IMG/VR virus record: IMGVR_UViG_3300001681_000076
Location: 1 to 35,017 of that record
Source: a virus
Reading direction: 5' to 3' (one strand)
Length of the DNA stretch: 35,017 nt
Numbering within the stretch: the first letter of the stretch is position 1; each line of letters begins with the position of its first letter. Below, piece after piece: positions 14,368 through 34,059 of this stretch. A program made the translations under genes and the position numbers. The notes below the pieces were generated by a model. It did no database searches and had not been told where the DNA came from. It saw only the letters and a list, made by a program, of their open reading frames with translations.

Positions 14368-17300
14368 TTATTTTTTTAAATTAAGTGGCATATTTGGGTA
14401 TGCACCACTTCTTCCAAAATTATCCATCATCCCTTGCTTTCCTTCTTTTCGGAAGGTGTCTATAAACTGTTTTGCATTTCTGTCACCGGTTGCTTCATAT
14501 AGATCAAATGCGCCCTTGATAACGTATGCTTGTTTTTCTGCGTTACCGTTTGCTGAAATGAATTCATGCATCCAAACACTAGCGCCAAATCTGCGCATTA
14601 TGCTTTTAAGTTTATTCACCACCGTTGTACCTTTTGGTGTTGTTAATGCATCGACCTCTTCTTGGGTTAGTTGATCACCATTCCCTGAGACTAATTTCTT
14701 CGCCGCTCTATTGAGAAACAAGTCTTGTTTTGACATTACCTCTTCATACTTGCCTGCAGTCAGATCATGTGCTAAGTCGCCTGAGTCCACAATCTTGAAG
14801 AATCTACCTACCATATTACCAATAACCGGAATTCCAATTTGATCTCTCACCCAATGTAATAATTTGTCATCTACAGTGCCTTCACTAAATTCGTTCAACT
14901 CATCAAGCGTTACCCTTGTTGGTTCGTAACCGAAAATCTCCGGAACATCATCCCATTGTTTCGATATTAAAGTACCACCTGCAAGTTTCCAAACATGATC
15001 CGCCCATGCCGCTTCTTTAAATTCACCGCCTGCTTTCATTTCTCTGTCGGTTAGAATGTTTTGTTGTCTAAACGGATCGTACGGGTTTCCACCTGACAGG
15101 TAAGTTAATGTCTGTGAAAACAAATCAATGATCGGTGCTACAGAAGGAAATTGTCCTGCACTATAGTCGGCTAAACCTTCACCGAAGTGTCCTGTTCTTG
15201 TTGATTTATGCGCTAATGGAGAATTAATTAGAGACTGCCAAAAAATACCTCCGGCAAATCTAGCGGTTTCATCTTGAGGAATGGTAAAAATTATTGCCTT
15301 TTGTACAAGACCTTTGCCGTCAGGACTTGGAACTGTAACAAGATCTAACGGTATAACAATGTAATTAGTTTTCACATAGTTTGAAGTCATGTTCATGATT
15401 GTGGCGTTCTTGGCTTTCTGCTCTTCTGTATTACCCATCCAACCTTGTGCTGCAGCGAACATCAGCATCTTCGGCACTAAATTAGATTGAATTATGTTAA
15501 ATGCATATTCTGATGAACGCCACTTAGACTTCTTACCTGTAGTTGGTTCTTTTCTAAATGACTCGTAATCACCACGCCAACCTTCTTTCATTGCATTAGA
15601 GAACATGAAAATATTGTTGTATGCAAGGAAACTGTCACCCTTTCTCAAGAATGCAGGTGAGCCTGCTTGTGTTCTAATGAAGTGAGCGCGTTGTTGTGGT
15701 GACATATCAGGAAAGTATTTATCCAAGTATCTATGTGCGCCCGCTTTATTTTGTGTTTCAATTAACTGTCCGCCAACTCGAATAAAGTCCAAGAACATAT
15801 TGACCGGATGTTCTACTTTCTTCGCCCACGCTTCTTTGGATTGGTGGAACTGCACGATTTGTCTTTCAAGTCCCATCATGTCCGTAGTCTCACCGTAAGG
15901 TTCTGCTATAGAGATCAATGACTTATCCATTCTCATGTTATCCATAACCTTGCTTGGAACATTTGAAAATCGATGCCAACCGTCTTTCATACCTTTTGCC
16001 CAATGTGGTGCATATCGCAATGTCTTTAAGATTGCAATGTTATCCCAATTACTAACTTTAGGAAGGTTACGAATTGTTCTTTGAGTATCACGAACCCAAT
16101 TGAACAGCATGAACGCAGGGTTCATTACAGTGTACGTGTTCCTAAACCAAGCATTCATTTGACTGAATCTATACCAACTTTGGTAAGAATCTAACTCGTT
16201 GCGCTTAAATCCTTTTGCCACCCATTTGTTTACATAGAACCCGTGCAACTTTCCTTTACGCATAACAGTCATTAATTCTAAATCTTTACCGTCATACTTT
16301 TCACCTCTTGGCTCAACGGGGCGCTCTACAGCGAATCCATTTTGCATAACAGTTTCATACTCAGCCTTCATAAAGTCAAACATATCTTCTAGTCCTGACT
16401 CTTTAGCCTTCTCATACATTTGCATTGTTTTATCGATGGCTCTGTTCCTAGCCATAGCACTAATAAGTTGTAAGTCGCTAAATACTGTTGCCGTTAGTGG
16501 ACTCTCAACACCTTTTACAGTACCAATTTGTCCGATCAGTTTTGACCCCATTCCATTTCCGAATGATTTGTTCATGTGTTCAACAACATTAAACGTTACA
16601 TAATTCTTGTTGCCGATAATCTTTTCTTTAAGTTCAGCGCCGAACATATCTGATTTCTTCACTTCGTTAATAAACCACTGCTCTCTTACTAGCCACAAGT
16701 TATCCACAATCTCTCTAATGTTGGGATATTTAACTTCAATTTCTGCCATTAGTTGTCTTGCTCTTGCAGGTGTTGTTCCTTCAGGATTTGCAATTTTTGA
16801 ACGATCACCCAAAGCAATACGATTCGTTAATAGATATAAATTAACCATATCTTCAGGTATTTGTTGTTTACGCGCCAACTCCCTGACGTTAAACTCTAAG
16901 TGACTTATGTAACCTTCCGCTGTATTTTTTGAATATATGTAATCCTCAATTGCGAACTCAGGATTGTCTTTGTCTTTTAAGTTAAAATTCTTTAGATCGC
17001 TTAACGTATTCGTATCTCTAATGATTGCAAAATATTTATCATAGAAGTTAAATTTAGCACTATTTACGCCATCATGTTTTCCTGCTTGCGCCTCTAGTGC
17101 TTCAACACGTTTCATATCTCCGTCACGCATCCACCTCATTAGCCTCTGTGCTAGTGCTTTGTTTGCGCCATTTGGCGTGTTTATAACGTCTTGGATAGCG
17201 TACCAATTATCACGGAACTTTGGATGTCCTTCATGCAAGAAGTTCATGAAACCTTCGTAAGCCGTTGGCATTTTCATTTTGACCCATGTAGGGTGTACTA

Positions 17301-20300
17301 TTAATGCACTAATAAAGTCAGCAAAGATTTCAGGCGAACTTCTTCTATACTTAACATAGGTAGTTGTTGCTTGCGCTTCATCGTATGGCCTCCACTCTTT
17401 CGATCCTTGGTACATTTCTTCATGTATCAAGTCTCGATTAAGTAGTTTTCTTTTGCTTACTTCGGCCTCAAACATTTCCTTGAACTTAGTAGCAATTTGT
17501 TGTTTTAAATCTTTTGGTAATGCATTAGTCTCTTTACCGCGATCTAAAACTTTCATGATGTCAGGGTGAATTTGACCACGCATTGCAGCCTTTGTAATTT
17601 CCCTTTTTAATTTACGTGATGCTGATTGTATTACAGAATATACATTTGGATCTACTTCTGCGCGTTTCATCACCCCTGTAAAGATGTCTTTGATTTGCTG
17701 TGGAGTTATGCCTAATTCTTTTACTGCAGGGATTGCTGAAATCTCTTCTGACAACTCTTTAACAAGCCTTGTAGCCTCTTTTTTTAGATCTTTAATCTCA
17801 CCCTTGGTTAATGGTTTTTGTCCATTTGGCGTGCCTTGATAATATTTTCCTAAATGCCCTTTTAAACTAGCAATACGTCCTATAATGTCTCCGCGTGCCA
17901 TTGTATGCTCGCCTACTTTAGATATGTAATCTACAATATGGCCAAGTTCGTGTGCAATTGTTGCCTTTGCTTGTTCAGGATCTCTAAACAGTTCTGCATT
18001 TAGTTTGACTGCAGCATTAAGTTCAGTTCCTTCTCGAACAATAGCCATGCCTCTAGTCCCTTCACCGAGTTTCGTTGTGACTTCAGCGTGCTTCCCACCC
18101 ATAACTTCAAATAGAAGGTTTACAATCTCAGGTAGATCAAACATTTTATGGTATCGAGAACTTTCTCTCATCAGTCCCATGTTAAATGATGCTGTGGATG
18201 CAAGATCTAATGCCTTATGATCACCTAGTTTGTCTGTGAAGTTTAGTTTTATCTCACCATTAGCATCAAACTCTCTCTTTGAAACACCTAGTATTTTGGT
18301 ATTCTTTGGATTTAACAGAATAGAGGATTCTACTATCCCACCTTTCTCAAAATATATAGCATCAAACCCTAGTTCTTTAGCGAATGTTTTTAAAACTTGT
18401 TCCTTATTCGGTGATTTATTAATCCTGTAGTTGAACCTCTCTAAAATATCAGAATTTTTCTGCATGTTTCTTCTTAGGGCAGTTGTGATTTGCTCAATTG
18501 CAATAGATTCGCTCTTACCTTGTGCTTCTGCAATCATGAGTGGATTGTCTATTCTTGCTAATACACGGTAAATAAATCCCTTATTAGGTCGTACTACAGC
18601 CTGCGCATCGCTACCTACTCGTATTAGAGCATCAGTCTTGTTATTAAATCTATTCAGATCCGCTCGTGAGGAACTGTGTGTAACGATTGCCCAACCTTCA
18701 CCATTCTTCAGAATCTCTTCACGAGTTGGCATCTTGACATCTTTTATCGGAGAAAACTCATGTTCACCTGTTAATTTCACTTCGCCCGACTTTATTAGAA
18801 ATTCTGTAGTGTGCCAACCACCATTTTGTGTTCTTTCATACTCAGATTGTTGGCGCAATATCTCCATTTCTTTTACGTCCACCAATTCCTGTAATCTTTG
18901 TTGAGAGTATTCGATTTCAGTTCTACTAAGCACTTCGCCTTTTATACCTTCAAGAGTATCTCTAACAAAATCGGCAGCAACCTTTCCACCACCTAGCATG
19001 TCAGCCGCTTCTGTCGTGTCCTTAATAACTTTATCTATGATCAATAAATTAGCATCATCATGAGACCAACCTTTTATTTCTTCAGGCTTTCCCTCGTTTG
19101 TAGCATCTCGCTTCTGAGTTGCTTTATCAACAATCTCCTGCAATTTACTTGGAAGAGTTATTTTGCTATCAACAATATTGTAATCCCTTGCTATGAAATG
19201 CTCTACAACATGCATCATTCCTTGTTCAGATACCTTGCCATCTACAGATTCAATAACCCAACCATTCTCATGGGTTGGAGATCTTGATAGCCTAATGTTC
19301 ATATTATTAACTGTAGTGCCTTCTTGGAACACAGCCTCTAGGTTCTTTCCTGTCGTATTGTGTTCAGCAGTTGTAAGTACAATAACAGGATTTCCACCAT
19401 TACTTGAACGCTCAAATGAATGTTGTGATGTGTGGTATATGTCACCCTTCTGAGTGTGAGTTGCTTGAGAGGCTTGCGCTCGCATGATAATAGCATCTAC
19501 TGATTTTGTAAGCGCTGCAGGTAAGTCAAAATGATATTGCCCACCCCTTATAGTAGGCGCTTTTCTCATTGCGGCCATAATAGTTGGTGTTAGATTAGGA
19601 TTCGCTTTTAAAAACTCAACGAATGCTTCAGGTCTAATACCGTGTTGAGCAAATGCTTTTTGTAATCTTTTATTGACTGCCCACTCTGTTGAGCCAACGT
19701 GCATTTTAATTTTACCGGTAACTTTACTAAATCCTGTATTACCACCATGCATTATTCCAAGAACCATCACATTGTGTGCAAACTCTTCAGCAGAAGGCCA
19801 CCATCTTTGCGGTACTGTCCCCGCATACATATTTCGCATAGGATCAATAGTACCAACTTCAGTCATTATTGATGCTTCAGTCAATAATCGTGCCGTACCA
19901 ACACCATACTGTTTGCCACTCTTGCCCGTAGTTCTTTCGATTAGTTTTCTAATAAATGGATTTGCCGTTGTTTTTGCAGCACTCGTCAATAAGAAACTAC
20001 CTGTTCCTGTTAATGCACCTAAAACTGCCTCTGCACCAAATTCCTTAATGGCATTTTTCATGTAATCAAGGAATTCTTTTTCATTGCCAACACCGGCAGC
20101 ATCATCTAACAGATCCGTATAAATACTACGGATAGCGCCATGCACACCAAACATACCTGCGAAACAACCTATTGTTCCACCCGCTGCCGTTCCCACTGTT
20201 GTTCCTACTGCGGGAACTGCAGAACCTGCGGCTGCACCAACTTTTGTTCCCACTGCACCACCCGCTTTACATCCACCCCAAAAAAGAGGAGTATCGGGTA

Positions 20301-21312
20301 CGATACCTGCAACACTATATGCCAACTGATTAATAAATGGCTGCTCTTCTAAGTATATTGACTCACCAAGAAGATCTGCCATGCTAGTAGGACATTTGCT
20401 TTCATCTTTTTGACAGGCGTGGAACTTGTACCCCATCACCACTACGGCTTGTTGAGCGCCATATTCTAAAGACTCCGTGAAAGTCCAATCCCATGCCGAC
20501 TTATCTGCATCAATAGGTGGCCGCGCTCTTTGCTCATCTTCGTCCCAATACCACTGATTCGCTCTCGCCCACTTTTTTGACTCTTCTAGTGCGCTCTCTT
20601 CAAACCCATAAGGGACTACTTGATACGTGGGCGTATCAGAATAAATAGGCTTGTCATTTATAACATCCCACTCTACTACATCAGTGCGCATTTTTGTGTA
20701 ACCTTCAGGAGTCCCGCCATAATTGATATTATCTATATCACCTACGTCTGAAACATGCTTTTGTCTTGATGTATCTTGCCCTGCTAGTATCTCTTGAACA
20801 TAACTAAATGGCGCTTTTTGGTGAACCGCTTGTGCGATCTGTACTCCAATTTCAGGTTTGTGCGCCCACATAGTTTTCATCTGTAGCGCGACATCTTCGG
20901 GAGTCCATTTTAAGTATTGATTGTAAGACTGTTCAGCATTTGGATCTGTAATCCAATCGCCACCTTGAACCTCTTGTGCCACCTGCATAAATTGCGTGCC
21001 ATTATCTGTTTCAAATGCGTACTTCGGGTACTGTGAAGTTCCATCGAATACCGGCTCTTTATCCCAATTGAATCGACCCTGCTTCCCTGCAACGGTCATT
21101 TCGTCACTCATTCCAACGTCATTAACTTTGGTGATATTGTTTGTATTTTTGAACAAGCCAATTGGCGGCATTGTTATGCCAAGTTCATTGTTTATGTCTA
21201 GTGCTGAAAATCCATCTGATTTTAGTGTGTTTTGCTTTTCAAGGAATAACGCGCGTGCTTCACTCTCGCTGTAGCCATCTGTCAATCTATCTGTTAAGAA
21301 TTGCGATTTCAT
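14368..21312 (-). CDS. Giant internal virion (polyvalent-type) protein with peptidase and ART-like regions
   Basis: This is a 2314-residue protein, a fifth of the window. In order: residues 1 to about 335 unknown; a Gly/Ala-rich hydrophobic stretch (about 345-390) able to insert into membranes; an ADP-ribosyltransferase-like region (about 865-1000: THSSSRADLNRF, FIYRVLARIDNPL, ELGFDAIYFE, LLNPKNTKILG) as in polyvalent proteins; a zinc-metallopeptidase motif AHELGHIVDY (HELGH at 1121-1125); and a long C-terminal region (about 1725-2100: MNPAFMLFNWVRDTQRTIRN) typical of large polyvalent-protein-associated domains. Such proteins ride in the head and are ejected with DNA, in the place of T7 gp16. 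No transglycosylase motif was seen. Confidence 0.8.
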   Translation of the reverse strand: MKSQFLTDRLTDGYSESEARALFLEKQNTLKSDGFSALDINNELGITMPPIGLFKNTNNITKVNDVGMSDEMTVAGKQGRFNWDKEPVFDGTSQYPKYAFETDNGTQFMQVAQEVQGGDWITDPNAEQSYNQYLKWTPEDVALQMKTMWAHKPEIGVQIAQAVHQKAPFSYVQEILAGQDTSRQKHVSDVGDIDNINYGGTPEGYTKMRTDVVEWDVINDKPIYSDTPTYQVVPYGFEESALEESKKWARANQWYWDEDEQRARPPIDADKSAWDWTFTESLEYGAQQAVVVMGYKFHACQKDESKCPTSMADLLGESIYLEEQPFINQLAYSVAGIVPDTPLFWGGCKAGGAVGTKVGAAAGSAVPAVGTTVGTAAGGTIGCFAGMFGVHGAIRSIYTDLLDDAAGVGNEKEFLDYMKNAIKEFGAEAVLGALTGTGSFLLTSAAKTTANPFIRKLIERTTGKSGKQYGVGTARLLTEASIMTEVGTIDPMRNMYAGTVPQRWWPSAEEFAHNVMVLGIMHGGNTGFSKVTGKIKMHVGSTEWAVNKRLQKAFAQHGIRPEAFVEFLKANPNLTPTIMAAMRKAPTIRGGQYHFDLPAALTKSVDAIIMRAQASQATHTQKGDIYHTSQHSFERSSNGGNPVIVLTTAEHNTTGKNLEAVFQEGTTVNNMNIRLSRSPTHENGWVIESVDGKVSEQGMMHVVEHFIARDYNIVDSKITLPSKLQEIVDKATQKRDATNEGKPEEIKGWSHDDANLLIIDKVIKDTTEAADMLGGGKVAADFVRDTLEGIKGEVLSRTEIEYSQQRLQELVDVKEMEILRQQSEYERTQNGGWHTTEFLIKSGEVKLTGEHEFSPIKDVKMPTREEILKNGEGWAIVTHSSSRADLNRFNNKTDALIRVGSDAQAVVRPNKGFIYRVLARIDNPLMIAEAQGKSESIAIEQITTALRRNMQKNSDILERFNYRINKSPNKEQVLKTFAKELGFDAIYFEKGGIVESSILLNPKNTKILGVSKREFDANGEIKLNFTDKLGDHKALDLASTASFNMGLMRESSRYHKMFDLPEIVNLLFEVMGGKHAEVTTKLGEGTRGMAIVREGTELNAAVKLNAELFRDPEQAKATIAHELGHIVDYISKVGEHTMARGDIIGRIASLKGHLGKYYQGTPNGQKPLTKGEIKDLKKEATRLVKELSEEISAIPAVKELGITPQQIKDIFTGVMKRAEVDPNVYSVIQSASRKLKREITKAAMRGQIHPDIMKVLDRGKETNALPKDLKQQIATKFKEMFEAEVSKRKLLNRDLIHEEMYQGSKEWRPYDEAQATTTYVKYRRSSPEIFADFISALIVHPTWVKMKMPTAYEGFMNFLHEGHPKFRDNWYAIQDVINTPNGANKALAQRLMRWMRDGDMKRVEALEAQAGKHDGVNSAKFNFYDKYFAIIRDTNTLSDLKNFNLKDKDNPEFAIEDYIYSKNTAEGYISHLEFNVRELARKQQIPEDMVNLYLLTNRIALGDRSKIANPEGTTPARARQLMAEIEVKYPNIREIVDNLWLVREQWFINEVKKSDMFGAELKEKIIGNKNYVTFNVVEHMNKSFGNGMGSKLIGQIGTVKGVESPLTATVFSDLQLISAMARNRAIDKTMQMYEKAKESGLEDMFDFMKAEYETVMQNGFAVERPVEPRGEKYDGKDLELMTVMRKGKLHGFYVNKWVAKGFKRNELDSYQSWYRFSQMNAWFRNTYTVMNPAFMLFNWVRDTQRTIRNLPKVSNWDNIAILKTLRYAPHWAKGMKDGWHRFSNVPSKVMDNMRMDKSLISIAEPYGETTDMMGLERQIVQFHQSKEAWAKKVEHPVNMFLDFIRVGGQLIETQNKAGAHRYLDKYFPDMSPQQRAHFIRTQAGSPAFLRKGDSFLAYNNIFMFSNAMKEGWRGDYESFRKEPTTGKKSKWRSSEYAFNIIQSNLVPKMLMFAAAQGWMGNTEEQKAKNATIMNMTSNYVKTNYIVIPLDLVTVPSPDGKGLVQKAIIFTIPQDETARFAGGIFWQSLINSPLAHKSTRTGHFGEGLADYSAGQFPSVAPIIDLFSQTLTYLSGGNPYDPFRQQNILTDREMKAGGEFKEAAWADHVWKLAGGTLISKQWDDVPEIFGYEPTRVTLDELNEFSEGTVDDKLLHWVRDQIGIPVIGNMVGRFFKIVDSGDLAHDLTAGKYEEVMSKQDLFLNRAAKKLVSGNGDQLTQEEVDALTTPKGTTVVNKLKSIMRRFGASVWMHEFISANGNAEKQAYVIKGAFDLYEATGDRNAKQFIDTFRKEGKQGMMDNFGRSGAYPNMPLNLKK

Positions 21313-21320
21313 TTTTTACC

Positions 21321-24300
21321 TTATTTTAAAATTTTGCCATCTTCTAGCACAATGTAATATTTACCACCGTTATCTAACTTTGGCAGACTACGCAAAAATA
21401 CCAACGCATCCTCTTCATCTTCAAACATATCCATAGGCATCGAGGATTCAATATCAAACTCTCCGACTACTGCACCGATTTCTCTTTTGGTTATTTCAGA
21501 AGGAGTGACATCAAAATATGTTATACCGTCACCTGACGTGTAATTTCTTCTTTCATAAAGTCCTTGTAATAAATCAACAAGCCTTCTCTCTCTCTCAACA
21601 ACATAATCGTGTCCGTCTTTAGCGAAGTTGTACCCTGCTATAGTAGGCTTTTCCTCTGACTTCAAATCTGCAGATCCTGTTTCTTTCCAAGATTCGTAAC
21701 TAGAGTAGTCAATGCCTTTGTTTTTTTCAATAGTAGCATGTGTATATTTTAATTCATCAATCCATTCTTCAGCATGTCTAGCATCCGCACCCATCCCATA
21801 AAAATCACTTACTAAAAAGTTAGTCAAGAACTGTCCTGTTTTTAATAACCCGTCCGCACCAACATCCATGAATTTATCAAACGCTGTTTTGTTCGCATCG
21901 GCTTTCTCTTTGGCTGTTGCAGTAATTTCCAACGTCTCTAATGCCGCTATTTTTTTGTTTATTTCTGCAAGTGCTTTCGCTTCTGCCGCTATTTTTTGCT
22001 TTGTTCTTTCAATTTCAACATCCATATCTTTTATTTGTGCAATAGATACGCCCAATTCTGCAGCATTCTTTATAGTAGTTGCTTCTGCGACCTGAGACTC
22101 TAACTCCGTTTTCTTTTCTGTCCAAGTATCTGTATTATTGGACGTTGTATTATCTAGGTGTTCATCTATTGCTGCAATTTCTGCATCAAGAGTTTCAATG
22201 ATTTTTGTTTGGTTAATAATATCTGCTGATTCTTGTGATACTAATTCTTCATAATTTAAGTATTTTGTTAAAGCACCACTTTTAATTAATGCTTTTCTTT
22301 TTTTAAGTTCTGAATAAGGCTCTGTTCTATCTGTCCACCCTTCAGGGATCGGATGATCTGCAGGAAGTCTAACTACCTTACTAGCATCACCTGTTTGCAT
22401 CATTGCAATCTTTGAGAAGTACAATCCTCTACCATCTTCTACAGTCATTCCATCAGGTGCTACAAATGCGAAGTTAGATCCATCTGTAAATTTGATTGTG
22501 ACTTCCTTACCAATTAAAGAATCGTTTTTAAGTGCAGTGGCTAACTTTTCTGTTAATACTTCTGCGTTGTAAATTGTCCTTTTTTGTGCGTTTGTTATAT
22601 CAGAATTTTCTGCCACTTGGTTTGCTCTGATTTTTGCACGGTGCTTTGTAAATAGAGTGTCATCGACCCCACCAAGTTGCTCTTGAATAAGAGTATCTCC
22701 AATCCAATTTTTGTTTTGATCTCCAATATAATGTTTCTTACCGTTCTTATCCATCTTGTACAGTGGTGCGCGTAATTGATCTGCAAATGAAGTTCCGTCA
22801 CTTTCTTTCTTCAGTTTCAAAGTTTTATCCAACATCTCTTCAAAGTTAATCATTTGAGTTTGAACTAGCAATCTCGCCTCGGTAATACTAGCCTTATCTG
22901 CACCTTGCAACATGGCCAATATACTATTCAAATCACCCAAGTTCTCACCTGCGCCCAACTTCGCTTTCACTTCGTCAGGTTTTAAAATATAAAGTATCAT
23001 GGCGTTTTCTGCAATCGTAAGTAAATTCTGTTTCGCTTTACTTACCTTCCAATCTTTCCCTGCAGTTTTTAGAAACTTTGTTGCTTTAGTCCAATATTTG
23101 TCAGGAACAAAGCCAAACTTTTTAATTAAGTAGCCAAGGTATGCGTTGTCTGCTTCCACAGGGTTGGTTATATAGCCTTCAATAATTTGTTGAATCTCAG
23201 GATCTTCACTACTACCACTTCTAACGTCTGCTTCAATTGATCTAAACGCACTAATCTGACTTGATGAAAATGTTGCTTTCCCCTGTTGTTTAAGCATGGA
23301 CAGGTACTGATTGAACATAGCAGCAGATTTACCATTAGGACTTATTGTTGCGTTTATCAACGCATAGGTTAATGTCCCGTTTTGGTGTGCCGCTTGCAAT
23401 GTCGAAAGTTGTTTTGCAAAAACTGCTTCTTCTTTGTTACCAATATTTCTTACTCTTATTGCACGATCAGTTTCAAGTCTAGTGAGCAACTGCGACCTAT
23501 TACTGTCTTTCGAGCCAAAGTTTGGATCACCAACATCTAAAGCATTAACAGCATCCATGATTGCTTGCGCATGTTCTTCTGTGACATTGGGATCGTTAAG
23601 TAATGCAGAAAAGTCACCATTCACAAAATCGATTGCTCTGTTGTAATCTTCCACGGTTGTAACTACCGGAATACCCCCTTTAGTAGTATCAGATTCAGGA
23701 TGATCAAAGGCGGGGTTATTAAATGTTACTGATCTATAAGCATTTTGCCTTGTTATCCCTTCCTTTGCCGAGTCCACCAAATTATCAAGAGTTAAGAACA
23801 TAGCAGGCGTATTTAAAGACGGGAAAACACCATTTTTAACCTGACTCATCATGTTATCAATTGTTATCAACGCTTCTTTATTTTGCTCAACACTGTTTGT
23901 AGGAATTGCATCGTGTATGTTATCGAAATTTGCCAAAAAGGTACTTGATTGTTGCGCTCTTGTGTAATTAACAACATGACCTTGCACTTTAGTCATCATA
24001 GCCGCATACTTAGCACCGTGGTACTTATACATTGCTGCTCTAACATCTTTGTTCTTAATTGTGTCGATGTGATCTGTCATATATTTACGGTACATATCAG
24101 AGACTGTTGATGCTAGGTTCTTCGGTGAAATGCTATTGGATAACATGCCGTCACCCCCTTGCTGACCATAGGCTGCGCTCGTCATCACACCCATTGGGGA
24201 ATTGGGACTATATTCACTAGAGCCGGCTAAGAGACCTCCCTCCCATTTGTCAAAGTTGCCCTGAGAGGTGTTTAGTTGATTAACCTTATCGCCTTTTTCC

Positions 24301-24476
24301 AACGCAGCCATAACTGTTGAAGTCACCTGTTGCGAAGTACGCATGATTTGGTTTCCGTAATCCATAGCGCCACGTCCTGCTGCCATAGCATTACTAATCC
24401 ATTTAGTATTACCTGCTACCGGATTTGCTTGACCTAACTGAACATGCTTTCTTGTCCCTACTTTAATTCCTGCCAT
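21321..24476 (-). CDS. Large internal virion protein (T7 gp15-position)
   Basis: This is a 1051-residue, mostly helical protein just before the giant one in the late operon, the relative place of T7 gp15. The N-terminus is Gln/Gly/Ser-rich with helical parts (MDYGNQIMRTSQQVTSTVMA). A long coiled coil lies at about residues 740-880 (INQTKIIETLDAEIAAIDEH through EIERTKQKIAAEAKALAEIN). I see no lytic transglycosylase or peptidase motif and no transmembrane helix. It probably forms part of the ejected channel together with the gp14-like and giant proteins. The assignment is from position and composition, not sequence similarity. Confidence 0.65.
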   Translation of the reverse strand: MAGIKVGTRKHVQLGQANPVAGNTKWISNAMAAGRGAMDYGNQIMRTSQQVTSTVMAALEKGDKVNQLNTSQGNFDKWEGGLLAGSSEYSPNSPMGVMTSAAYGQQGGDGMLSNSISPKNLASTVSDMYRKYMTDHIDTIKNKDVRAAMYKYHGAKYAAMMTKVQGHVVNYTRAQQSSTFLANFDNIHDAIPTNSVEQNKEALITIDNMMSQVKNGVFPSLNTPAMFLTLDNLVDSAKEGITRQNAYRSVTFNNPAFDHPESDTTKGGIPVVTTVEDYNRAIDFVNGDFSALLNDPNVTEEHAQAIMDAVNALDVGDPNFGSKDSNRSQLLTRLETDRAIRVRNIGNKEEAVFAKQLSTLQAAHQNGTLTYALINATISPNGKSAAMFNQYLSMLKQQGKATFSSSQISAFRSIEADVRSGSSEDPEIQQIIEGYITNPVEADNAYLGYLIKKFGFVPDKYWTKATKFLKTAGKDWKVSKAKQNLLTIAENAMILYILKPDEVKAKLGAGENLGDLNSILAMLQGADKASITEARLLVQTQMINFEEMLDKTLKLKKESDGTSFADQLRAPLYKMDKNGKKHYIGDQNKNWIGDTLIQEQLGGVDDTLFTKHRAKIRANQVAENSDITNAQKRTIYNAEVLTEKLATALKNDSLIGKEVTIKFTDGSNFAFVAPDGMTVEDGRGLYFSKIAMMQTGDASKVVRLPADHPIPEGWTDRTEPYSELKKRKALIKSGALTKYLNYEELVSQESADIINQTKIIETLDAEIAAIDEHLDNTTSNNTDTWTEKKTELESQVAEATTIKNAAELGVSIAQIKDMDVEIERTKQKIAAEAKALAEINKKIAALETLEITATAKEKADANKTAFDKFMDVGADGLLKTGQFLTNFLVSDFYGMGADARHAEEWIDELKYTHATIEKNKGIDYSSYESWKETGSADLKSEEKPTIAGYNFAKDGHDYVVERERRLVDLLQGLYERRNYTSGDGITYFDVTPSEITKREIGAVVGEFDIESSMPMDMFEDEEDALVFLRSLPKLDNGGKYYIVLEDGKILK

Positions 24477-24964: not shown

Positions 24965-26686
24965 TTAATCTACAACTGTGAGAGTGCCATGAATACCTAA
25001 AATTGTCATAGGTAAAGGCTGCTCTTGTCTAATTTCAATAATACCATCTCTATCCCAACCAAGATTAGTAACCCGTTTATCACCTTCAAAGTTCGGTACT
25101 GCTGCACCCATTTTATGCGCTGATGTTCTGAACGGTAGTTGATCTCCGTTAATAATTACACCTGTCGTATCTATGAGTCTGACCATAACTTCATTCCATC
25201 TCTTTTTACGGCCTTGTGCTTTACCTGCTTCAGAACCCGCTTCTACTCGCATTGTTCTTAGTTTTGATTTGTAAGCAAGTCCGATCTGAATTGGTACAGT
25301 ACCCCAAGTGCTAGGAATCTTTGGACTAACACTACCACCTGATACTATTTCATCAGGGAATACACAGTTATCAATTAATATCTGTACTGTCTCCCCTTCT
25401 AAATGTGACAATCCACCCACTGATGTGGTTGATCCTGTTACCGTTCCGGATAAAGCACCGTCCACATTTAATTCAGGATCAAGATATTCAACGTGTCTCA
25501 CTACATTGCCGTTTACTGTTCTTTTTACCAAGACCCAAACCTGATCTTTTGTTCTTTCTGTAATTACCGTTAGGCTTTCAACTTCAGAATCTTTTCCACC
25601 AATATAGTGCCTTGCCCATGCAATAACATCCTCCGGTCTTTCGTAAGTCATACTTAATAACTTTCCGTCTGATGTGCATGCCCATACAATAGAGTCAGGT
25701 TCTTGCTGATAATCCATGTCAGTCAAATACCCTTCAGTGATGTGTTCTGCTAATAGAGTCATATCAGGTGCAGTGTACGAGTCTGTTTGATAACTGTATG
25801 AATATTCACGAATTTTTCTTCTTGCACGCTGAACAAATAGAATCGCATTACCGATTTGGATCGGTGGAATTATGTAACTTCCGTATGTTGTTTGCTGCGT
25901 TACCATGATGTTTGATGGCGTTAGTGGTTCACCTGTTGGTCTGCCAACTTTAAATTCGCCACCACCTGTTCCAATAATTAAATCTCTACTAGGCTGCAAC
26001 CATCTAATAACGTTTACTCTATTTGTTGCAATCGCATATTCCATAGACTCGTCAGCAAGTCCTGTTCCTTGATTGAAGTTTTCGTAATCTGCAGTTTGTG
26101 AACCCCAAATAGTTTGCGGATATGCTGAAGTACCTGCAAAGAATAATCGTTGCTCATAGAAAGATACTGTTCTTGGATAGCCGTTTGCTGCCGTCCAAGG
26201 TGTTGCACCTGACCATGTAAAGGTTGGTGTTGTCAGTGTCCATGCAGTATGACCTGTACGACTTAGTTTTCTTGGTGCGTGATTACTATGACAGACATAC
26301 ATTACATCCGCTGATTGAGCAAAGTGTAATTCAAACAATTCTGCTTCTGAATAAGGAGTAGAAATCTCATACGCAACTGCAGGTGATCCTGTTACGATCT
26401 GACCATTGTCTTTGAAAAACCTGATATAGTTTTCACCAACTTCTAATACATAAGATTGTGTAGTATTAAACTCAAAAGGTATTAATCTAACCTCTTTACT
26501 TGAGTCTTTTACTTCTGAAACGAAATATGTTCCATCTCTTCTCTTAGCGCCGCCATGAGGATAAACAAACATATTCTTTAGTTCGCTTACGCCATTAAAA
26601 TATTTTTTGAAATCAATTTGACCTTCAAGCCGTGGACTTAACTCACCTGCTGTAAAGTTTGATTGAAAGGGGTGTACTCTAGCCAT
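24965..26686 (-). CDS. Tail tubular protein B-like nozzle protein
   Basis: This is a 573-residue protein. The N-terminus (QSNFTAGELSPRLEGQIDFK, YFNGVSELKNMFVYPHGGAK, RRDGTYFV) is the hallmark of the podovirus nozzle/stabilisation family related to T7 gp12. The rest is beta-rich (propeller-like repeats such as YVLEVGENYIRFF and SIVWACTSDGKLLSMTYERP), consistent with the tail nozzle that caps the tube. It overlaps the adaptor gene by one base. Confidence 0.85.
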   Translation of the reverse strand: MARVHPFQSNFTAGELSPRLEGQIDFKKYFNGVSELKNMFVYPHGGAKRRDGTYFVSEVKDSSKEVRLIPFEFNTTQSYVLEVGENYIRFFKDNGQIVTGSPAVAYEISTPYSEAELFELHFAQSADVMYVCHSNHAPRKLSRTGHTAWTLTTPTFTWSGATPWTAANGYPRTVSFYEQRLFFAGTSAYPQTIWGSQTADYENFNQGTGLADESMEYAIATNRVNVIRWLQPSRDLIIGTGGGEFKVGRPTGEPLTPSNIMVTQQTTYGSYIIPPIQIGNAILFVQRARRKIREYSYSYQTDSYTAPDMTLLAEHITEGYLTDMDYQQEPDSIVWACTSDGKLLSMTYERPEDVIAWARHYIGGKDSEVESLTVITERTKDQVWVLVKRTVNGNVVRHVEYLDPELNVDGALSGTVTGSTTSVGGLSHLEGETVQILIDNCVFPDEIVSGGSVSPKIPSTWGTVPIQIGLAYKSKLRTMRVEAGSEAGKAQGRKKRWNEVMVRLIDTTGVIINGDQLPFRTSAHKMGAAVPNFEGDKRVTNLGWDRDGIIEIRQEQPLPMTILGIHGTLTVVD

Positions 26687-27249
26687 TAGCCTCTAAAACT
26701 TATAAAAGTATCTGAAACGATGCTATCACTCGAACCCTCCAATCCATCAATAGAACGCGCTTCTGCAATCTTACTTTCGTAGAGTTCCCACATCTGTTTC
26801 GATAGTGTGTTACTACCGGTAATAGAGTATGCCAATTCTGCTGCAAGTCGTGCAGTCAATGCTTCCGTAAATAATGGATCGAACTGTGATGTATCGGTAA
26901 TTTTTGAAATATATAAAATACTTGCTGCATCTTCATTTGACAACAGTTTTCTACCTTCAATTTTGAATTCTATGTCAGCGTATGACATCTGCAAAACTCT
27001 TAAACAATAAGGCTTTGTAGGTAGTGTGTATTCTGCTGCAAAATCAAATGCAGGTATTGATGTTAATTTACTAAGTTTTTGCCTAGCAATAGCAAAGTTC
27101 CAAGTATGCGCTCGTAGAACAGCATCTCTTGTAGGCTCATAAAATGCATTAGATAGCCTTGCTCTTTCCGTATTATCGGATAGGGATGTGATTGCTTCGT
27201 CACCTAACTTGCGCAATGCATTTGAACAGATGGAAACTTCTGTAGCCAT
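26686..27249 (-). CDS. Tail tubular protein A-like adaptor
   Basis: This is a 187-residue protein. SICSNALRKLGDEAITSLSD, FYEPTRDAVLRAHTWNFAIA and LPTKPYCLRVLQM match the T7 gp11 (tail tubular A) adaptor family, which joins the portal to the nozzle and binds fibres. Its length is close to that of T7 gp11. AGGAG precedes ATG 27249. The 64 bp between it and the capsid gene have no gene; they contain a GGGG/CCCC inverted repeat ending in T7 on the plus strand. Confidence 0.85.
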   Translation of the reverse strand: MATEVSICSNALRKLGDEAITSLSDNTERARLSNAFYEPTRDAVLRAHTWNFAIARQKLSKLTSIPAFDFAAEYTLPTKPYCLRVLQMSYADIEFKIEGRKLLSNEDAASILYISKITDTSQFDPLFTEALTARLAAELAYSITGSNTLSKQMWELYESKIAEARSIDGLEGSSDSIVSDTFISFRG

Positions 27250-29164: not shown

Positions 29165-29380
29165 TTATTCCTCTTTTATATTACACATTTTTATAATACG
29201 CATATAGACGGATCTTTCTCCTTCTCTACGCGCGGTTTCATACGGATCGCCTTTTACATAAGACTCCCGCATTTGATATGCAGCCTTTAAGTCTTTGAGG
29301 ACTTGCATTCCCTCTCTAGTACCAAAAGCATCTGCATAGTTTCTTCTGAGATCATCAATCTCTTTCATCCCGCTGATCAT
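29165..29380 (-). CDS. Bbp19-like small head-region protein
   Basis: This is a 71-residue protein. YADAFGTREGMQVLKDLKAA followed by KGDPYETARREGERSVYMRI matches the small Bbp19-like family (named for Bordetella phage BPP-1) found between portal and scaffold genes. ATG 29380 is chosen: it overlaps the portal stop (TGATG) and has AAGG upstream; a GTG at 29383 is also possible. Its role is unknown, probably in head assembly. Confidence 0.75.
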   Translation of the reverse strand: MISGMKEIDDLRRNYADAFGTREGMQVLKDLKAAYQMRESYVKGDPYETARREGERSVYMRIIKMCNIKEE

Positions 29381-30996
29381 CACTGACCTTCTTGCATCAT
29401 AGCCTGCATCATAGCCTCTTGATCTTCTTCGGACATATCCGCTGCTTGTGCTGCTACAGGTGCTAATTTACTCACAACATCTGCACCGCCTTGTACTGCT
29501 TGCATCTGTTGTTGCTGCTGTTGTTGTTTTGCAGCCTCTTCACGTTTAGCATTAATTTCTTCAGGATCTCTCATAATGTTTTTAGGAACGCCTAACAGTT
29601 CAGCACGAGAACGAATTGCTGCATCATGATCAATGTTGTCCATTATTTCAGGTGCAAATCCCGCTAAATTAGCAGCCATTTCATACAACCTCTCAACTGC
29701 CGTAGCCTCTTCCATTCTTTGAGAACGTGCTAGTGGGCCGACAAACTCAATATCTAACGCAGTGCCTTCCAAATCTTCCGGCGCAGGGGAAAAAAGATCG
29801 TTCCTGTCCATAATGGCAAAACATCTTTCTATCAATGGATTTAGAAACTCCGTCTGAAATCTTCCTAGAGTCGGGCCTAGTAGTCTTTGCATCAATTCAT
29901 AGCGAACTTGTACTTCAGTTGCCGTCATTTGCGGGCCACTCTGAAGTTCTAACTGATCTGAGAAGAAAGCCTGCTTAATAGCACCTCTTAAAGCCTCTTC
30001 CTTCATGTCAGAAACATCAAATCTTGCACCTGTATTTAACGGCTTTATTGCACCATCTCTTCTAACAACTGTTATACCTGATGGTTTTGTAACAACACGA
30101 CCAATAACACCATCATCTTCTACTAAAAGTGGCGGATCTATTGCCTTTGCCCATGCTTTTAACCCTAACTCTACTGCTTTATTGAGAGTTTTAATATCAG
30201 GGAGTGCATTGAACGCAGGTGATCTTCCATATTTTTCACCTGATGCTTTTGCCCATCTAGTTACCAAGTATGGCATTTCGTTATAACCACCCTCGCCAAC
30301 AATATTCTTATCTGCAAGACAGATATAAACGGATGCCCAAGGTAATTTTGTTTGATTCTTCTCATACGAAGGCGTTACGCAGTGAATAAATTCAAAACTC
30401 TTGTCCGGATCTTTCTTTAGCGCCTCCATAACCTTAACACCAACAGCATCTCCCCATTTTTGGTGAGCCTGACGTGCTGTATAAGGAAATTTTCTGTACA
30501 AAGTATCTATCTCGCCCTTGTGATTCTCAGAAATCATGTATTCAGAAACCGCTAACGATCTAAAACTGATTGCCCCATCTGCTTCTTCAACTTCTAAACA
30601 AGCAGTACCGATAGAACAAATATCAAGATAGAACTCATGCACTTCTGTATTGAAGTTTGACGAGTTGAACGCTTTGTACATTCTATTACGACAATCTTCT
30701 AACCATACTTGCACCTCTCTACTTGCAGCGACTGACTCATCTCTAACTCTTAAATGAAACCAAGGTAGGGATGCAGACGTTAAAGTCCCTTGTAAAGATG
30801 CCGCAAGTAAAGTATTTGCATGAACTGCGGTAGAATCGTAAAGTTTCTCAGTTCTCTTTGATCCTTTTGCATAAGTTGCAGACACATCTGCTTTCCTTGG
30901 CATTACATAGTCAAGAATTTCTTGCCAATGATTCAACCACGGTGCTTTATCAGATTCTAATTTATTAAATCTTTTAATTAACTGTTCAACTTCCAT
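29380..30996 (-). CDS. Portal (head-tail connector) protein
   Basis: This is a 538-residue protein of the podovirus head-tail connector family (T7 gp8 type): NHWQEILDYVMPRKADVSAT and KLYDSTAVHANTLLAASLQG at the N-terminus, HKGEIDTLYRKFPYTARQA, YGRSPAFNALPDIKTLNKAV in the middle and TATEVQVRYELMQRLLGPTL in the crown/wing part. A Gln-run (AAKQQQQQQQMQ) and acidic Met-rich tail follow. The length agrees with T7 gp8 (536). As a dodecamer it would gate DNA entry and join the adaptor. Confidence 0.9.
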   Translation of the reverse strand: MEVEQLIKRFNKLESDKAPWLNHWQEILDYVMPRKADVSATYAKGSKRTEKLYDSTAVHANTLLAASLQGTLTSASLPWFHLRVRDESVAASREVQVWLEDCRNRMYKAFNSSNFNTEVHEFYLDICSIGTACLEVEEADGAISFRSLAVSEYMISENHKGEIDTLYRKFPYTARQAHQKWGDAVGVKVMEALKKDPDKSFEFIHCVTPSYEKNQTKLPWASVYICLADKNIVGEGGYNEMPYLVTRWAKASGEKYGRSPAFNALPDIKTLNKAVELGLKAWAKAIDPPLLVEDDGVIGRVVTKPSGITVVRRDGAIKPLNTGARFDVSDMKEEALRGAIKQAFFSDQLELQSGPQMTATEVQVRYELMQRLLGPTLGRFQTEFLNPLIERCFAIMDRNDLFSPAPEDLEGTALDIEFVGPLARSQRMEEATAVERLYEMAANLAGFAPEIMDNIDHDAAIRSRAELLGVPKNIMRDPEEINAKREEAAKQQQQQQQMQAVQGGADVVSKLAPVAAQAADMSEEDQEAMMQAMMQEGQ

Positions 30997-31005
30997 GATG
31001 CCCCC

Positions 31006-31260
31006 TTATGAACCCGATCCAAGAAGAGATCGTTTCTTTGTTGGCGCTTCATCCAAAAGACCTTCTCCGCCTGTTCTTAATAATGAATACCTGCCTTTCT
31101 TGGCTTTGTTCAGTATTTTCTTACGCTCTACAACGATTTCTTCATCCATTCGCTTTTCTTCTGCTCTGCGAACTTCAGTTTCTTTCTCCATTGTTTGTGG
31201 CGTGTACATTGGTGGCATTGGTGGTGGTGGTGGTGGTGCAGGTGGTGATTTTTTACCCAT
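31006..31260 (-). CDS. MGKK...LLG mini-protein, copy 4
   Basis: This is an 84-residue protein with MGKKSPPAP, a Pro-run, a charged helix (about 25-50), then SLLRTGGEGLL and KKRSLLGSGS at the end. It is one of four tandem paralogues between terminase and portal that share N-terminus MGKK(S/N)xP and C-terminus (K/x)(S/T)LLG. T7 gp7.3, a small virion protein needed for ejection and coded just before the portal, also starts MGKK and ends with a KKSL...SGG-type tail, so a related virion role is suggested but not proven. Confidence 0.75.
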   Translation of the reverse strand: MGKKSPPAPPPPPPMPPMYTPQTMEKETEVRRAEEKRMDEEIVVERKKILNKAKKGRYSLLRTGGEGLLDEAPTKKRSLLGSGS

Positions 31261-31675
31261 TTTCTTCTCCTAGATAACGACACTCGCTGCGCAACATTCC
31301 ATAAAAGATACCATCTTTACCGGATTTACACATCTGTCTGAGTCGGCCTTCTTTCTTAAACCCCATTCTCTCAAGATGATTTCGCGCAGTTGTGTTGTCA
31401 ATTTCTGTAAATGCAGAAACTCTACGGACACCCAATTGTTCAAAAGGGTAGCCGTATATGAATTTCATGTTTTTTTTGGTGAACGCCCCTCGGACTTCAC
31501 TTGCAGCGGAAAGCATAATATCTACCTCTCGGTACTCACTATACACAACCCCTGCTACTAATTTTCCTTCTTGATATATTCCAAACGATACGCAAGCGCC
31601 AAAATCTGTTGCGCCTACTCGATCCGCAACCCACTGTGAAGTTTCGGATTTGTCATTTGGTACTACGTCAAACAT
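31253..31675 (-). CDS. GNAT-family acetyltransferase-like protein
   Basis: This is a 140-residue protein. The C-terminal half, VRRVSAFTEIDNTTARNHLERMGFKKEG, has the NxxARxHLExxGF signature of GNAT acetyltransferase motif B, and the middle (KFIYGYPFEQLGVRR) fits motif A, though a clear Q/RxxGxG/A acetyl-CoA loop is not obvious. Similar proteins occur in the packaging regions of several podoviruses. The substrate is unknown. It interrupts the row of MGKK...LLG genes and overlaps copy 4 by 8 bases. Confidence 0.7.
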   Translation of the reverse strand: MFDVVPNDKSETSQWVADRVGATDFGACVSFGIYQEGKLVAGVVYSEYREVDIMLSAASEVRGAFTKKNMKFIYGYPFEQLGVRRVSAFTEIDNTTARNHLERMGFKKEGRLRQMCKSGKDGIFYGMLRSECRYLGEENG

Positions 31676-31678
31676 GGA

Positions 31679-31939
31679 CTAACGTCCCCCTCCAAGAAGA
31701 AGTCGTTTTTTGACCTTATCTTCTTCTTTGTCCCAATAATTTCTTGAGGCTAAAATATTTTTTTGTGGTGCTTCTACGCCTTGTACTGTAGATACCTTAT
31801 GATCTCGTACACTTACTTCGTTTAATTCTTTTGTTGTTTCTTCTTGCGTTTCCGTTGTGACTACCGGATCAGGTAATACAGGTTCAGGGTACGCCGGTTG
31901 ATAGATAACTTGGGGTGCGGGTGCTGATTTCTTTCCCAT
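31679..31939 (-). CDS. MGKK...LLG mini-protein, copy 3
   Basis: This is an 86-residue protein with MGKKSAPAP, a Pro/Tyr-rich stretch (YQPAYPEPVLPDP), an acidic Thr/Glu region, then KNILASRN and KKRLLLGGGR. It shares both ends with its neighbours while the middle has diverged completely. A strong AGGAGGT site precedes ATG 31939. One base separates it from copy 2. Confidence 0.75.
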   Translation of the reverse strand: MGKKSAPAPQVIYQPAYPEPVLPDPVVTTETQEETTKELNEVSVRDHKVSTVQGVEAPQKNILASRNYWDKEEDKVKKRLLLGGGR

Positions 31940-31940
31940 C

Positions 31941-32234
31941 TTAACCTCCTAATAATGTCTGTTTTGAAACGTTTGCATCTGACTCAATTCCTTTTCCGCC
32001 GGATAATAAAACAGATTTTCTAATTTGCTTTCGCCGTCTGCCCATCATTGATGCGTGATCTTCAACAGGTTCTTTAACTTGTGCCTGTATCTGTTTTACT
32101 TGACCTGCTTGTTTCTTTACCATTTTATTTACTGCAGGAAATGACCCCGCCGGAGATCGAGCCGCCGGCTGCTGCTGCGGTTCGTATGTTCGATAAACAG
32201 GTTGTTGTGCTACGGGCGGTGATTTTTTACCCAT
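31941..32234 (-). CDS. MGKK...LLG mini-protein, copy 2
   Basis: This is a 97-residue protein from ATG 32234 (a longer frame to 32315 would overlap copy 1 and lacks MGKK at its start). MGKKSPPVA is followed by a Gln/Pro-rich stretch, a basic helix (VKKQAGQVKQIQAQVK), RRRKQIRKSVLLSGGKGIES and SKQTLLGG. It is the most basic copy and may contact DNA. Confidence 0.75.
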   Translation of the reverse strand: MGKKSPPVAQQPVYRTYEPQQQPAARSPAGSFPAVNKMVKKQAGQVKQIQAQVKEPVEDHASMMGRRRKQIRKSVLLSGGKGIESDANVSKQTLLGG

Positions 32235-32235
32235 G

Positions 32236-32460
32236 CTAAGACCCCAATAATGATTTAGTCTGTGCAGAAGCAGTTCCGCCGCCGAGATTTGCGCCTCTAG
32301 TAAGAATGTTTCCATAATTACCTTGCTTGCCTTTCTCTTTCTTGACTGCTTCTTGAGCGTTTGCTACAGGTGCAGGCGATGCTGCGGCTGATGCCGGTGC
32401 TGATGTTATATAAACAGGTTGTGGTGCTGCAGGTGCAGCAGGTGCATTTTTCTTACCCAT
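32236..32460 (-). CDS. MGKK...LLG mini-protein, copy 1
   Basis: This is a 74-residue protein with MGKKNAPAAPAAPQP, an Ala/Pro/Ser-rich low-complexity stretch, a short Lys-rich segment, then GNILTRGANLGGG and TKSLLGS. It is the shortest copy and follows the large terminase gene after 14 bases, with an AGGGG site upstream. The central (N/S)-x-L-x-(T/S)-x-G and terminal SLLG blocks define the family together with copies 2-4. Confidence 0.75.
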   Translation of the reverse strand: MGKKNAPAAPAAPQPVYITSAPASAAASPAPVANAQEAVKKEKGKQGNYGNILTRGANLGGGTASAQTKSLLGS

Positions 32461-32474
32461 GATTTTATTTCCCC

Positions 32475-33905
32475 TTAAAAAATATTAAACTTGTCATCTG
32501 CCTGATGCTGCCTTGGTTGAGTTTCAAACACCCTTGCTAATCGCAAAGACATCGCTGCATACCTCATGGCAGAAATCAAGTCGTCTTTAAATGGTACTAT
32601 TCGACCTTCCTTTCTATGATACATCCTAAATTCATCGAAAATCTCTTTTTGTGTATCAAAAACCTTTAATCTGCCTGTTTTCATTCTCTCAAGCAATTCC
32701 ATTACACCCGACTCTAGTGAAACACCTCCCGATCCTTCAGGCTGTCCACCTGTGGGCGGGTTAGTAAACCAACCACCCCACGTTCTTCCTCTTCCTTTTA
32801 TCATGTTCACACCTAGAGTGCGATATTGATCTGCTAATGGTGTTCCCGAACCCTTGTCTGCTTGCCTACCATCACGCGGCCAAACAACAGGAATCCATTT
32901 CGGTCTTGCGTTAATTGCTGCTGCATGTATTGCAGGCACTTCTTGTCGTTGTGAATAAGTGTCATATATGTATATTACATCAGAATCTCTATCCCAAGTA
33001 ATCCAAACTGCTGTTGTTGGGTGATCCCAACCATAATCCATTCCACATATACGAGGCCAATGACTCGGAATCTCTATCGGCTTACATTTGATTAGATCTT
33101 CAGGTATCGGAAAGACTAAACCCGAACCAAGAGAAGGAATTCCTTTTTCTCTCATCTTCCTCTCGTGTGGCGGTAGTGCAGCGAGTATTTGTTCTTTAAC
33201 TTCAGTCGTCATGTGCGGTGCATCATCCCAACCTGCAGTGTGCATAACTTGACCATTACGCAAATCATTCATAAATTGTGCAACAGTTTCCGTCATTCCA
33301 TTCTCAGGGGTGAACGTCATGTACACCATGCCCCCTTTATCTGCAGTACGAGTCACACATTGCGAGTAAATCTCCGGTGGCGGCTCTTCATCTAACCAAA
33401 TTACGTCTAGCGACTCACCCATCCACTTCTCTCTTCCCATTTCGTAGGCTTTGAAACCGATACGCGACCATCCACCACTCACATGTTTCACAACGGCGGA
33501 GTTAAATGCATGTGGAACACCCGCTTTTCTTGTTGTATCACCGATAAGTTTTGCAGGAATCGATCCCACACCCCTTGCTGACGGATCATCCGGCTGTCCG
33601 AATAGTTCTTTTTGTAGAATATCACGAGTTGTTTCATTACTCGCACCACCCGCCCACGCTCTAATTGGTCTATTCCATCTTCTGCCTGTCCACCAATCGG
33701 GGTACAACCCTGTTAAATGAATTGCTAACTCCATCGCACCACAGAATGATTTTCCAATTCTGTTTCCTGCCATCAATAATTTTTGAGCAGCCTTAACATT
33801 GTGGAATTTGTCCTGATATGCATACGGCTCGTAGTATTTCAATCGGTTGTGGTCTTTCCTGTACTGCAGTTCTTTTGCGATTTGTATTGCTTTTTCAACG
33901 CTCAT
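32475..33905 (-). CDS. terL: Terminase large subunit
   Basis: This is a 476-residue protein. ATPase domain: Walker A-like AGNRIGKS (46-53), Walker B VIWLDEE (168-174). Nuclease domain (RNase H-like): GMDYGWDHPT with Asp290, and a C-terminal KDDLISAMRY with Asp441/442. It is a podovirus-type large terminase that drives DNA into procapsids and cuts concatemers. ATG 33905 (MSVEKAIQIAK) is preferred over a GTG six bases upstream. The start overlaps the previous gene by 11 bases. Confidence 0.93.
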   Translation of the reverse strand: MSVEKAIQIAKELQYRKDHNRLKYYEPYAYQDKFHNVKAAQKLLMAGNRIGKSFCGAMELAIHLTGLYPDWWTGRRWNRPIRAWAGGASNETTRDILQKELFGQPDDPSARGVGSIPAKLIGDTTRKAGVPHAFNSAVVKHVSGGWSRIGFKAYEMGREKWMGESLDVIWLDEEPPPEIYSQCVTRTADKGGMVYMTFTPENGMTETVAQFMNDLRNGQVMHTAGWDDAPHMTTEVKEQILAALPPHERKMREKGIPSLGSGLVFPIPEDLIKCKPIEIPSHWPRICGMDYGWDHPTTAVWITWDRDSDVIYIYDTYSQRQEVPAIHAAAINARPKWIPVVWPRDGRQADKGSGTPLADQYRTLGVNMIKGRGRTWGGWFTNPPTGGQPEGSGGVSLESGVMELLERMKTGRLKVFDTQKEIFDEFRMYHRKEGRIVPFKDDLISAMRYAAMSLRLARVFETQPRQHQADDKFNIF

Positions 33906-34059
33906 CTTCACTCTCTAATAAGATTGCATCTTGTTGTATCTGCTCTGCAAGAGTTGCGATAACAATATCGTCTAGTTCCCCTGCACCCTCTTTAATTAGT
34001 TTCGCTGTTCTGTGTATTGCTCTTAATTTAATCTTGCATTCCTCAAACTTATGCTTCAT
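33895..34059 (-). CDS. Hypothetical helical protein between the terminase genes
   Basis: This is a 54-residue charged helical protein (starts MKHKFEECKIKLRAIHRTAK, ends acidic EDER). ATG 34059 overlaps the upstream stop (ATGA); the frame extends further upstream but inside that gene. Two helices joined at GAGELDD suggest a helical hairpin. It may assist terminase assembly by position; no family is known to me. Confidence 0.65.
   Translation of the reverse strand: MKHKFEECKIKLRAIHRTAKLIKEGAGELDDIVIATLAEQIQQDAILLESEDER

Follow-up and report, generated by a model that had tools for sequence, protein, structure and literature searches.

The window analysed here is the whole of IMG/VR virus record IMGVR_UViG_3300001681_000076 (35,017 bases), the sequence of a marine phage; it carries on its minus strand a block of small genes with the large terminase subunit gene, TerL, on one side and the portal gene on the other. 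Four small genes and one GNAT acetyltransferase gene form a single conserved cassette between TerL and portal. Three of the four small products (P0004, P0003 and P0001; Table 1) can be assigned, by profile and motif, to the kind represented by epsilon15 gp3 and PHROG_831, in which a variable N-terminal part is followed by a conserved tail. The genes, their modules, their conservation, slot and copy numbers, and their synteny with gp6.7-gp7-gp7.3 of T7 are direct observations. Its products are probably a set of peptides, widespread but as yet without a name, that dock within the head-tail channel. We put at about 0.55 the probability that its products are channel proteins resembling T7 gp7.3 and gp6.7 and held in the head-tail channel by their C-terminal tail, a reading preferred because of the slot, the architecture of the proteins and the precedent of gp7.3.

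A conserved cassette between TerL and portal

The portal protein, used as a query, brought up 73 related viral records, and 52 of the records examined contain a complete TerL-portal interval, a set that counts the window itself and L006, another record of this phage. Across these 52 records the order TerL - A(0-2) - C - GNAT - B - portal, where A, B and C are types of small protein, is nearly fixed. One A gene is found in 27 records and two in 15, the window counted, the rest being minor variants; type C was recovered as an open reading frame (ORF) by its C-terminal part alone in 5 of the 52. In the window this order reads A(P0004)-A(P0003)-C(P0002)-GNAT-B(P0001). A first reading of this DNA, made from the letters without database searches (the sequence-only reading), had correctly placed four small genes of 74-97 residues between TerL and portal, coordinates and lengths included, but had regarded the GNAT gene as a break in the array. 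As GNAT is found between C and B in intact loci, it is a fixed member of the cassette and no interruption.

The genes from TerL to GNAT are separated by 14, 1, 1 and 3 nt, GNAT and P0001 overlap by 8 nt, and 9 nt lie between P0001 and portal. This operon-like packing, together with a purine-rich Shine-Dalgarno-like stretch ahead of every cassette start, indicates that these are genes and not chance ORFs. Profiles built from other phages recover P0001 by type B (1.8e-21), P0002 by type C (4.7e-15) and, by type A, P0003 (9.4e-11) and P0004 (5.5e-9); P0004 also scores 3.9e-18 on the A6 profile, which itself contains the window copies. For each window copy the match to its own-slot profile was reached in 0/1000 local-composition shuffles, and no further window ORF matches the other-phage profiles at E<=0.01. 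Best scores in the own slot, unmatched by any shuffle, point to duplications that are old and slot-specific. Recent duplication was ruled out, given that the window copies are only 33-45 % identical to one another and that each scores best on its own slot in other phages. Copy counting in related phages thus found the cassette conserved, and the outcome that the sequence-only reading had named as fatal to it, recent duplication without conservation, does not apply. No near-identical DNA was found in phage records, and P0003 had no tblastn match among them. The window TerL is 67% identical to that of Baldr, a phage in which an extra Lys-rich ORF of 48 residues (L001:5516-5662) separates the B-like gene from portal; this ORF lacks the tail and lies nearest the portal.

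Modular architecture of the small proteins

All four proteins begin MGKK(S/N)xP and carry LLG within 1-4 residues of the C-terminus, as had been noted from the sequence. The modules are nevertheless distributed by type. Types A and B have in common a C-terminal tail of ~30 residues, GRYSxLLTGGxG...KKSLLG; their last ~40 alignment columns match (hhalign 99.3 %), and both align at the C-terminus with pelagiphage and epsilon15 proteins (hhalign 97-99 %). Types B and C have in common the MGKKSxP start, and their first ~30-34 columns match (hhalign 93-95 %). Comparison of A or B with C at the C-terminus is not significant (hhalign 18-30 %), type C carrying a C-terminus of its own, APQASLLAERxFWxKKxSLLK or, more loosely, APQxxxLAxRxxWxKxx...LL. 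A shared N-terminus without a shared C-terminus identifies P0002 as an N-terminal paralogue with its own tail, that is, as a distinct subtype. A second conserved block had been proposed for all four proteins; it is found in P0001 (LLRTGGEG), P0003 (VLLSGGKG) and P0004 (ILTRGANL), whereas the corresponding stretch of P0002, ILASRNYW, belongs to the subtype C motif.

The proposal of conserved ends with free, unrelated middles stands in its first half. Nonsynonymous divergence across types runs from 0.37 to 0.48 for the middle, compared with 0.18-0.39 for the N-terminus and 0.20-0.27 for the C-terminus; in the same order from N-terminus through middle to C-terminus, the values are 0.18, 0.39 and 0.21 for type B, with type C similar, and 0.39, 0.48 and 0.27 for type A. 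The middles are not unrelated, however, since within a slot they align between genomes. In the structural model of the B protein a Pro-rich coil is followed by one helix (residues 21-59) and a low-confidence C-terminal coil, so that the B 'linker' may be a helix instead of a disordered stretch; the model of the C protein has two helices, at low confidence. Alignment A2, which mixes C-terminal tails, varied too much to serve for scanning. In a tree of the C-terminal module, B falls together with the first copy of the pelagiphages (support 0.83), although 45 residues are too slender a basis for relying on this grouping.

The PHROG_831 family

The PHROG_831 profile matches P0003 (E=3.4e-5) and P0001 (E=0.0031). 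P0004 has no match on the PHROGs profile itself and joins this kind through the other-phage A profile described above, while P0002 has no PHROG or Pfam match. The tail consensus of the kind is G-R-x-S-x-L-L-T-G-x-x-G ... K-x-L-L-G; LTGxxG with a terminal LLG is present, with variations, in three of the four window copies and absent from P0002, and the window copies lie between TerL and portal, as PHROG_831 members do. The same profile matches epsilon15 gp3 (6.2e-34) and phiV10 gp6 (2.4e-36), each of which directly precedes the portal gene, and HTVC010P gp3 and gp4 are two PHROG_831 copies. PHROGs lists the family as 'unknown function'. The family is not particular to this phage, being already present, though unnamed, in databases; a literature search found no mention of the tail motif.

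A scan for the tail confirmed at least 461 relatives in viral contigs, HTVC010P-like phages of SAR11 bacteria included. Among the matches listed, exactly two copies lie between TerL and portal in 73/73 HTVC010P-like loci with both genes. In related phages the tail is borne by very unlike N-terminal parts, in proteins from 66 residues up to 187-256, which upholds the modular make-up seen in the window. Some pelagiphage second copies (L224, L238, L243, L251, L260) reach 136-220 residues, against about 75, through a long N-terminal extension, and ct8d5349 encodes a protein of about 255 residues with the tail at its end. In a whole-genome profile search covering the window, Baldr, pelagiphages, epsilon15, phiV10, T7, SP6 and others, tail copies were confined to the TerL-portal interval. 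The window has four (P0002 weakly), Baldr, HTVC010P, HTVC035P and ct8d5349 two each, epsilon15, phiV10 and Vibrio phage 1.021 one each, and HTVC019P one weak copy; the search returned zero copies in phiVC8, ZP6, T7, SP6, P-SSP7 and BPP-1.

Epsilon15 gp3 (68 residues) has the same tail by profile and the same place directly before portal, but the epsilon15 type is a single copy with no GNAT beside it and an MCIG start, unlike the three tail-bearing copies plus subtype C, all with MGKK starts, of the window. HTVC010P resembles the window in having tandem paralogues with the same tail in the TerL-portal interval, and differs in that its copies number two, type C is absent and no GNAT is annotated there.

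Correspondence with the gp6.7-gp7-gp7.3 region of T7

The gene order in T7 is gp6.7 - gp7 - gp7.3 - (gp7.7) - portal, and in SP6 it is acetyltransferase gp28 (PHROG_1249) - gp29 - portal gp30, with gp29 in the gp7.3 family at 2.6e-11. PHROG_1249 is common to SP6 gp28 and the window GNAT (Table 1). A T7 gp7 relative (L146) matches it weakly (0.0014), and T7 gp7, when compared directly with the GNAT family of the window, gave a negative result. The GNAT slot corresponds to gene 7 of T7 and gene 28 of SP6. P0001 follows GNAT and directly precedes portal, and P0002 lies directly upstream of the GNAT-like gene; the synteny with T7 and SP6 thus assigns P0001 to the position of gp7.3 and P0002 to that of gp6.7. 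By position alone, type C would be the gp6.7 equivalent.

It has been established that T7 gp7.3 is present in six copies, of which only residues 84-98 are ordered and anchored to two adjacent nozzle subunits, the remainder being unstructured around the DNA (PMC11784390); PDB 9jyz is cited as its structure entry. Residues 2-15 of gp6.7 bind the portal barrel, both proteins are ejected, and T7 particles without gp7.3 cannot adsorb (PMC11784390). Both proteins have also been detected by mass spectrometry in virions of the T7-like phage phi-Psa17 (PMC4517105). We found no mention of gp7.3 or of a small protein in the cryo-electron microscopy paper on P-SCSP1u. Counterparts of gp6.7 and gp7.3 are unrecognisable by sequence in Peru-2 and ICP3, where small ORFs upstream of portal are suspected (2026 preprint, PMC13320782).

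T7 gp7.3 (PF11653, PHROG_1320) and SP6 gp29 are like the window proteins in their pre-portal slot with a GNAT-like gene upstream, their small size, their variable N-terminal part and their Gly/Ser-rich C-terminal end, and the likeness may extend to a C-terminal anchor as mode of action. On the other hand, the N-terminus of T7 gp7.3 is Lys-rich, whereas those of the window are Pro-rich or helical, and its C-terminal block, KKSLSVARSSGGGINI, lacks the LLG end. Between T7 gp6.7 (PF17570, PHROG_1391) and P0002, both upstream of a GNAT-like gene, no sequence similarity was detected. Of the comparison with gp7.3 made in the sequence-only reading, the slot survives, the C-terminal peptide of T7 gp7.3 being its only ordered, nozzle-anchored part; MGKK as a sign of kinship with T7 gp7.3 was ruled out because starts vary, epsilon15 gp3 beginning MCIG and the HTVC010P proteins MGS/MGG.

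Proposed role in the head-tail channel

In the mechanism we propose, the tail at the C-terminus would occupy a site that is repeated in the head-tail channel and that most probably lies between subunits of the nozzle or adaptor, in the manner of T7 gp7.3 residues 84-98; the putative partner in the window is the nozzle protein (24965-26686). The N-terminal part, whether Pro-rich, charged or helical, would hang in the channel, either surrounding the end of the DNA or lying against the portal barrel, and would help tail assembly and DNA retention, and the proteins would exit along with the ejected proteins. Several paralogues would allow one phage to fill several ring sites or to show different N-terminal parts on one docking tail. 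By analogy with T7, the proteins are expected to be present in virions, to dock to nozzle or adaptor and to be ejected. The window proteins would accordingly 'work like gp7.3' and not 'be gp7.3'. As a whole, the earlier observation is partly confirmed and the earlier interpretation partly supported.

Several results weigh against this role. Profile-profile comparison, which the sequence-only reading had proposed, did not detect homology of the window families to gp7.3 or gp6.7 (hhalign probability 0.1-0.8 %). P0001 reaches just 5.9 bits on the gp7.3 profile, a score equalled in 7/1000 shuffles, uncorrected for the number of comparisons. No virion proteome reporting these proteins was found, and no PDB entry matches the family. 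In addition, phiVC8 and ZP6 have a PF12236-like portal yet no copy, so the proteins are not obligatory for such a portal. In the same vein, PHROGs and Pfam scans of the window gave no match to gp7.3 (PF11653 / PHROG_1320), and P0002 against the gp6.7 profile gave an hhalign probability of 0.2-0.7 %. The P0001 score also counts among a few suggestive signals, the others being these: gp27 of the T7-like pelagiphage HTVC019P, which occupies the same slot, is equalled in 0/1000 shuffles on the pelagiphage PHROG_831 profile and in 1/1000 on the gp7.3 profile, and epsilon15 gp3 in 15/1000 on the latter, all uncorrected for the number of comparisons. Sequence homology of the window proteins to gp7.3 is thus only suggestive. 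An hhalign link between gp6.7 and gp7.3 themselves was discarded, the 98.9 % obtained from contaminated sets falling to 51 % with cleaned sets.

A broader and more tentative idea is that the LLTGxG...LLG tail serves as an address tag of general use, docking varied N-terminal cargo into ring sites of the portal-tail channel, the cargo having been diversified by gene duplication. If so, the cargo would comprise Pro-rich arms, basic amphipathic arms, helices and extensions of at least 100 residues, with up to three tail-bearing copies and a sister subtype in the window, and many podophages, among them the very abundant phages of SAR11, would have tethered peptides along their ejection path. If several paralogues have one docking tail, phages would possess a simple way to alter the lining of their ejection channel. 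The link to the gp6.7-gp7-gp7.3 slot gives PHROG_831 a concrete, testable role and directs attention to portal-tail maps, both those at hand and those to come. A rule of slot plus tail likewise addresses the gap left by sequence-unrecognisable counterparts of the Peru-2 and ICP3 kind.

It is unlikely, but deserves weight, that these are packaging accessory proteins whose tail docks on TerL or on the outer face of the portal during packaging and which are not retained in the virion. In all intact loci the genes are flanked by TerL and portal, and the net charges of P0001 (+6), P0003 (+11) and P0004 (+6) would suit contact with DNA; against this, the best-studied proteins of the slot, T7 gp6.7 and gp7.3, are virion proteins, and the T7 slot does not adjoin the terminase gene. 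We give slightly less credence still to transient scaffolds or chaperones for portal or tail, acting in morphogenesis only, because T7 gp7.3 is present in the virion and two to four paralogues with unlike N-termini are hard to fit to one chaperone role. A non-virion function, as regulators or as GNAT substrates (for instance, lysine-rich proteins that are acetylated and act on the host), seems improbable: GNAT is indeed conserved beside the small genes, and PHROGs lists gp7.3 and PHROG_4470 as 'moron/host takeover', but in HTVC010P and epsilon15 the small proteins occur with no GNAT annotated between TerL and portal, and the cassette always lies within the structural operon.

Finally, the conserved ends could hardly be DNA-level features, with MGKK as start-codon context and LLGG as the next gene's Shine-Dalgarno: although the last codons of P0003 (TTATTAGGAGGT TAA; 31941-31960, - strand) and P0002 (CTTCTTGGAGGGGGA; CTTCTTGGAGGGGGACGT TAG; 31679-31700, - strand) do double as such, LLG is encoded by a range of synonymous triplets (9 in B, 15 in A, 8 in the epsilon15-like proteins), many of which do not resemble a Shine-Dalgarno, and is kept where gene spacing differs, and MGKK is written with GGT/GGA and AAA/AAG. 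This triplet diversity rules out Shine-Dalgarno overlap as the main cause of LLGG and indicates that LLG is conserved as a protein feature.

The locus and other genes of the window

The gene set of the window includes T7-like portal, adaptor and nozzle proteins (Table 1). The GNAT product matches Pfam Acetyltransf_3 at 1.6e-4, under the curated cut-off, and its membership in the GNAT family is established through PHROGs.

Table 1. Cassette genes, their boundaries and the tail genes considered in the text.
Feature	Coordinates	Strand	Description
P0004, type A small protein, TerL-proximal	32236..32460	-	74 aa, MGKKNAP...GNILTRGANLGGG...TKSLLGS
P0003, type A small protein	31941..32234	-	97 aa, MGKKSPP...RKSVLLSGGKGIESDANVSKQTLLGG
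P0002, type C small protein	31679..31939	-	86 aa, MGKKSAP...APQKNILASRNYWDKEEDKVKKRLLLGGGR
P0005, GNAT acetyltransferase	31253..31675	-	140 aa; PHROG_4470 5.2e-33, PHROG_1249 3.4e-7
P0001, type B small protein, adjoins portal	31006..31260	-	84 aa, MGKKSPPAPPPPPP..., predicted helix about 21-59, KGRYSLLRTGGEGLLDEAPTKKRSLLGSGS
Portal (head-tail connector), downstream cassette boundary	29380..30996	-	PF12236 8e-141, PHROG_332 8.5e-158
Large terminase subunit TerL, upstream cassette boundary	32475..33911	-	PF03237 6e-26, PF17289 9.1e-18
Tail nozzle protein, T7 gp12-like	24965..26686	-	573 aa; PF25675 Phage_nozzle 7.8e-9, PHROG_376 1.1e-189
Tail adaptor, T7 gp11-like	26686..27249	-	187 aa; PHROG_394 tail protein 5.5e-55

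A small ORF (29165-29383, minus strand) overlaps the portal stop and is possibly a second conserved small protein; by eye it resembles the post-portal small ORFs of HTVC010P (gp6), HTVC035P, Baldr and ZP6, with an EGQRSV/EGERSV-like motif in common. Proteins of 2314 (14368-21312) and 1051 residues (21321-24476), both on the minus strand, occupy the ejection-protein position after a 150-residue gene product with a weak internal-virion-protein match, and have no convincing PHROG match of their own. Near the tail genes, a 584-residue protein (11222-12976, minus strand) matches the PHROGs 'regulator of chromosome condensation' at 1.9e-25 through RCC1-like repeats, and is possibly a beta-propeller tail protein. 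On the plus strand, and thus opposite the structural genes, a Sak-like single-stranded DNA annealing protein adjoins a RecE-like exonuclease (7558-9041).
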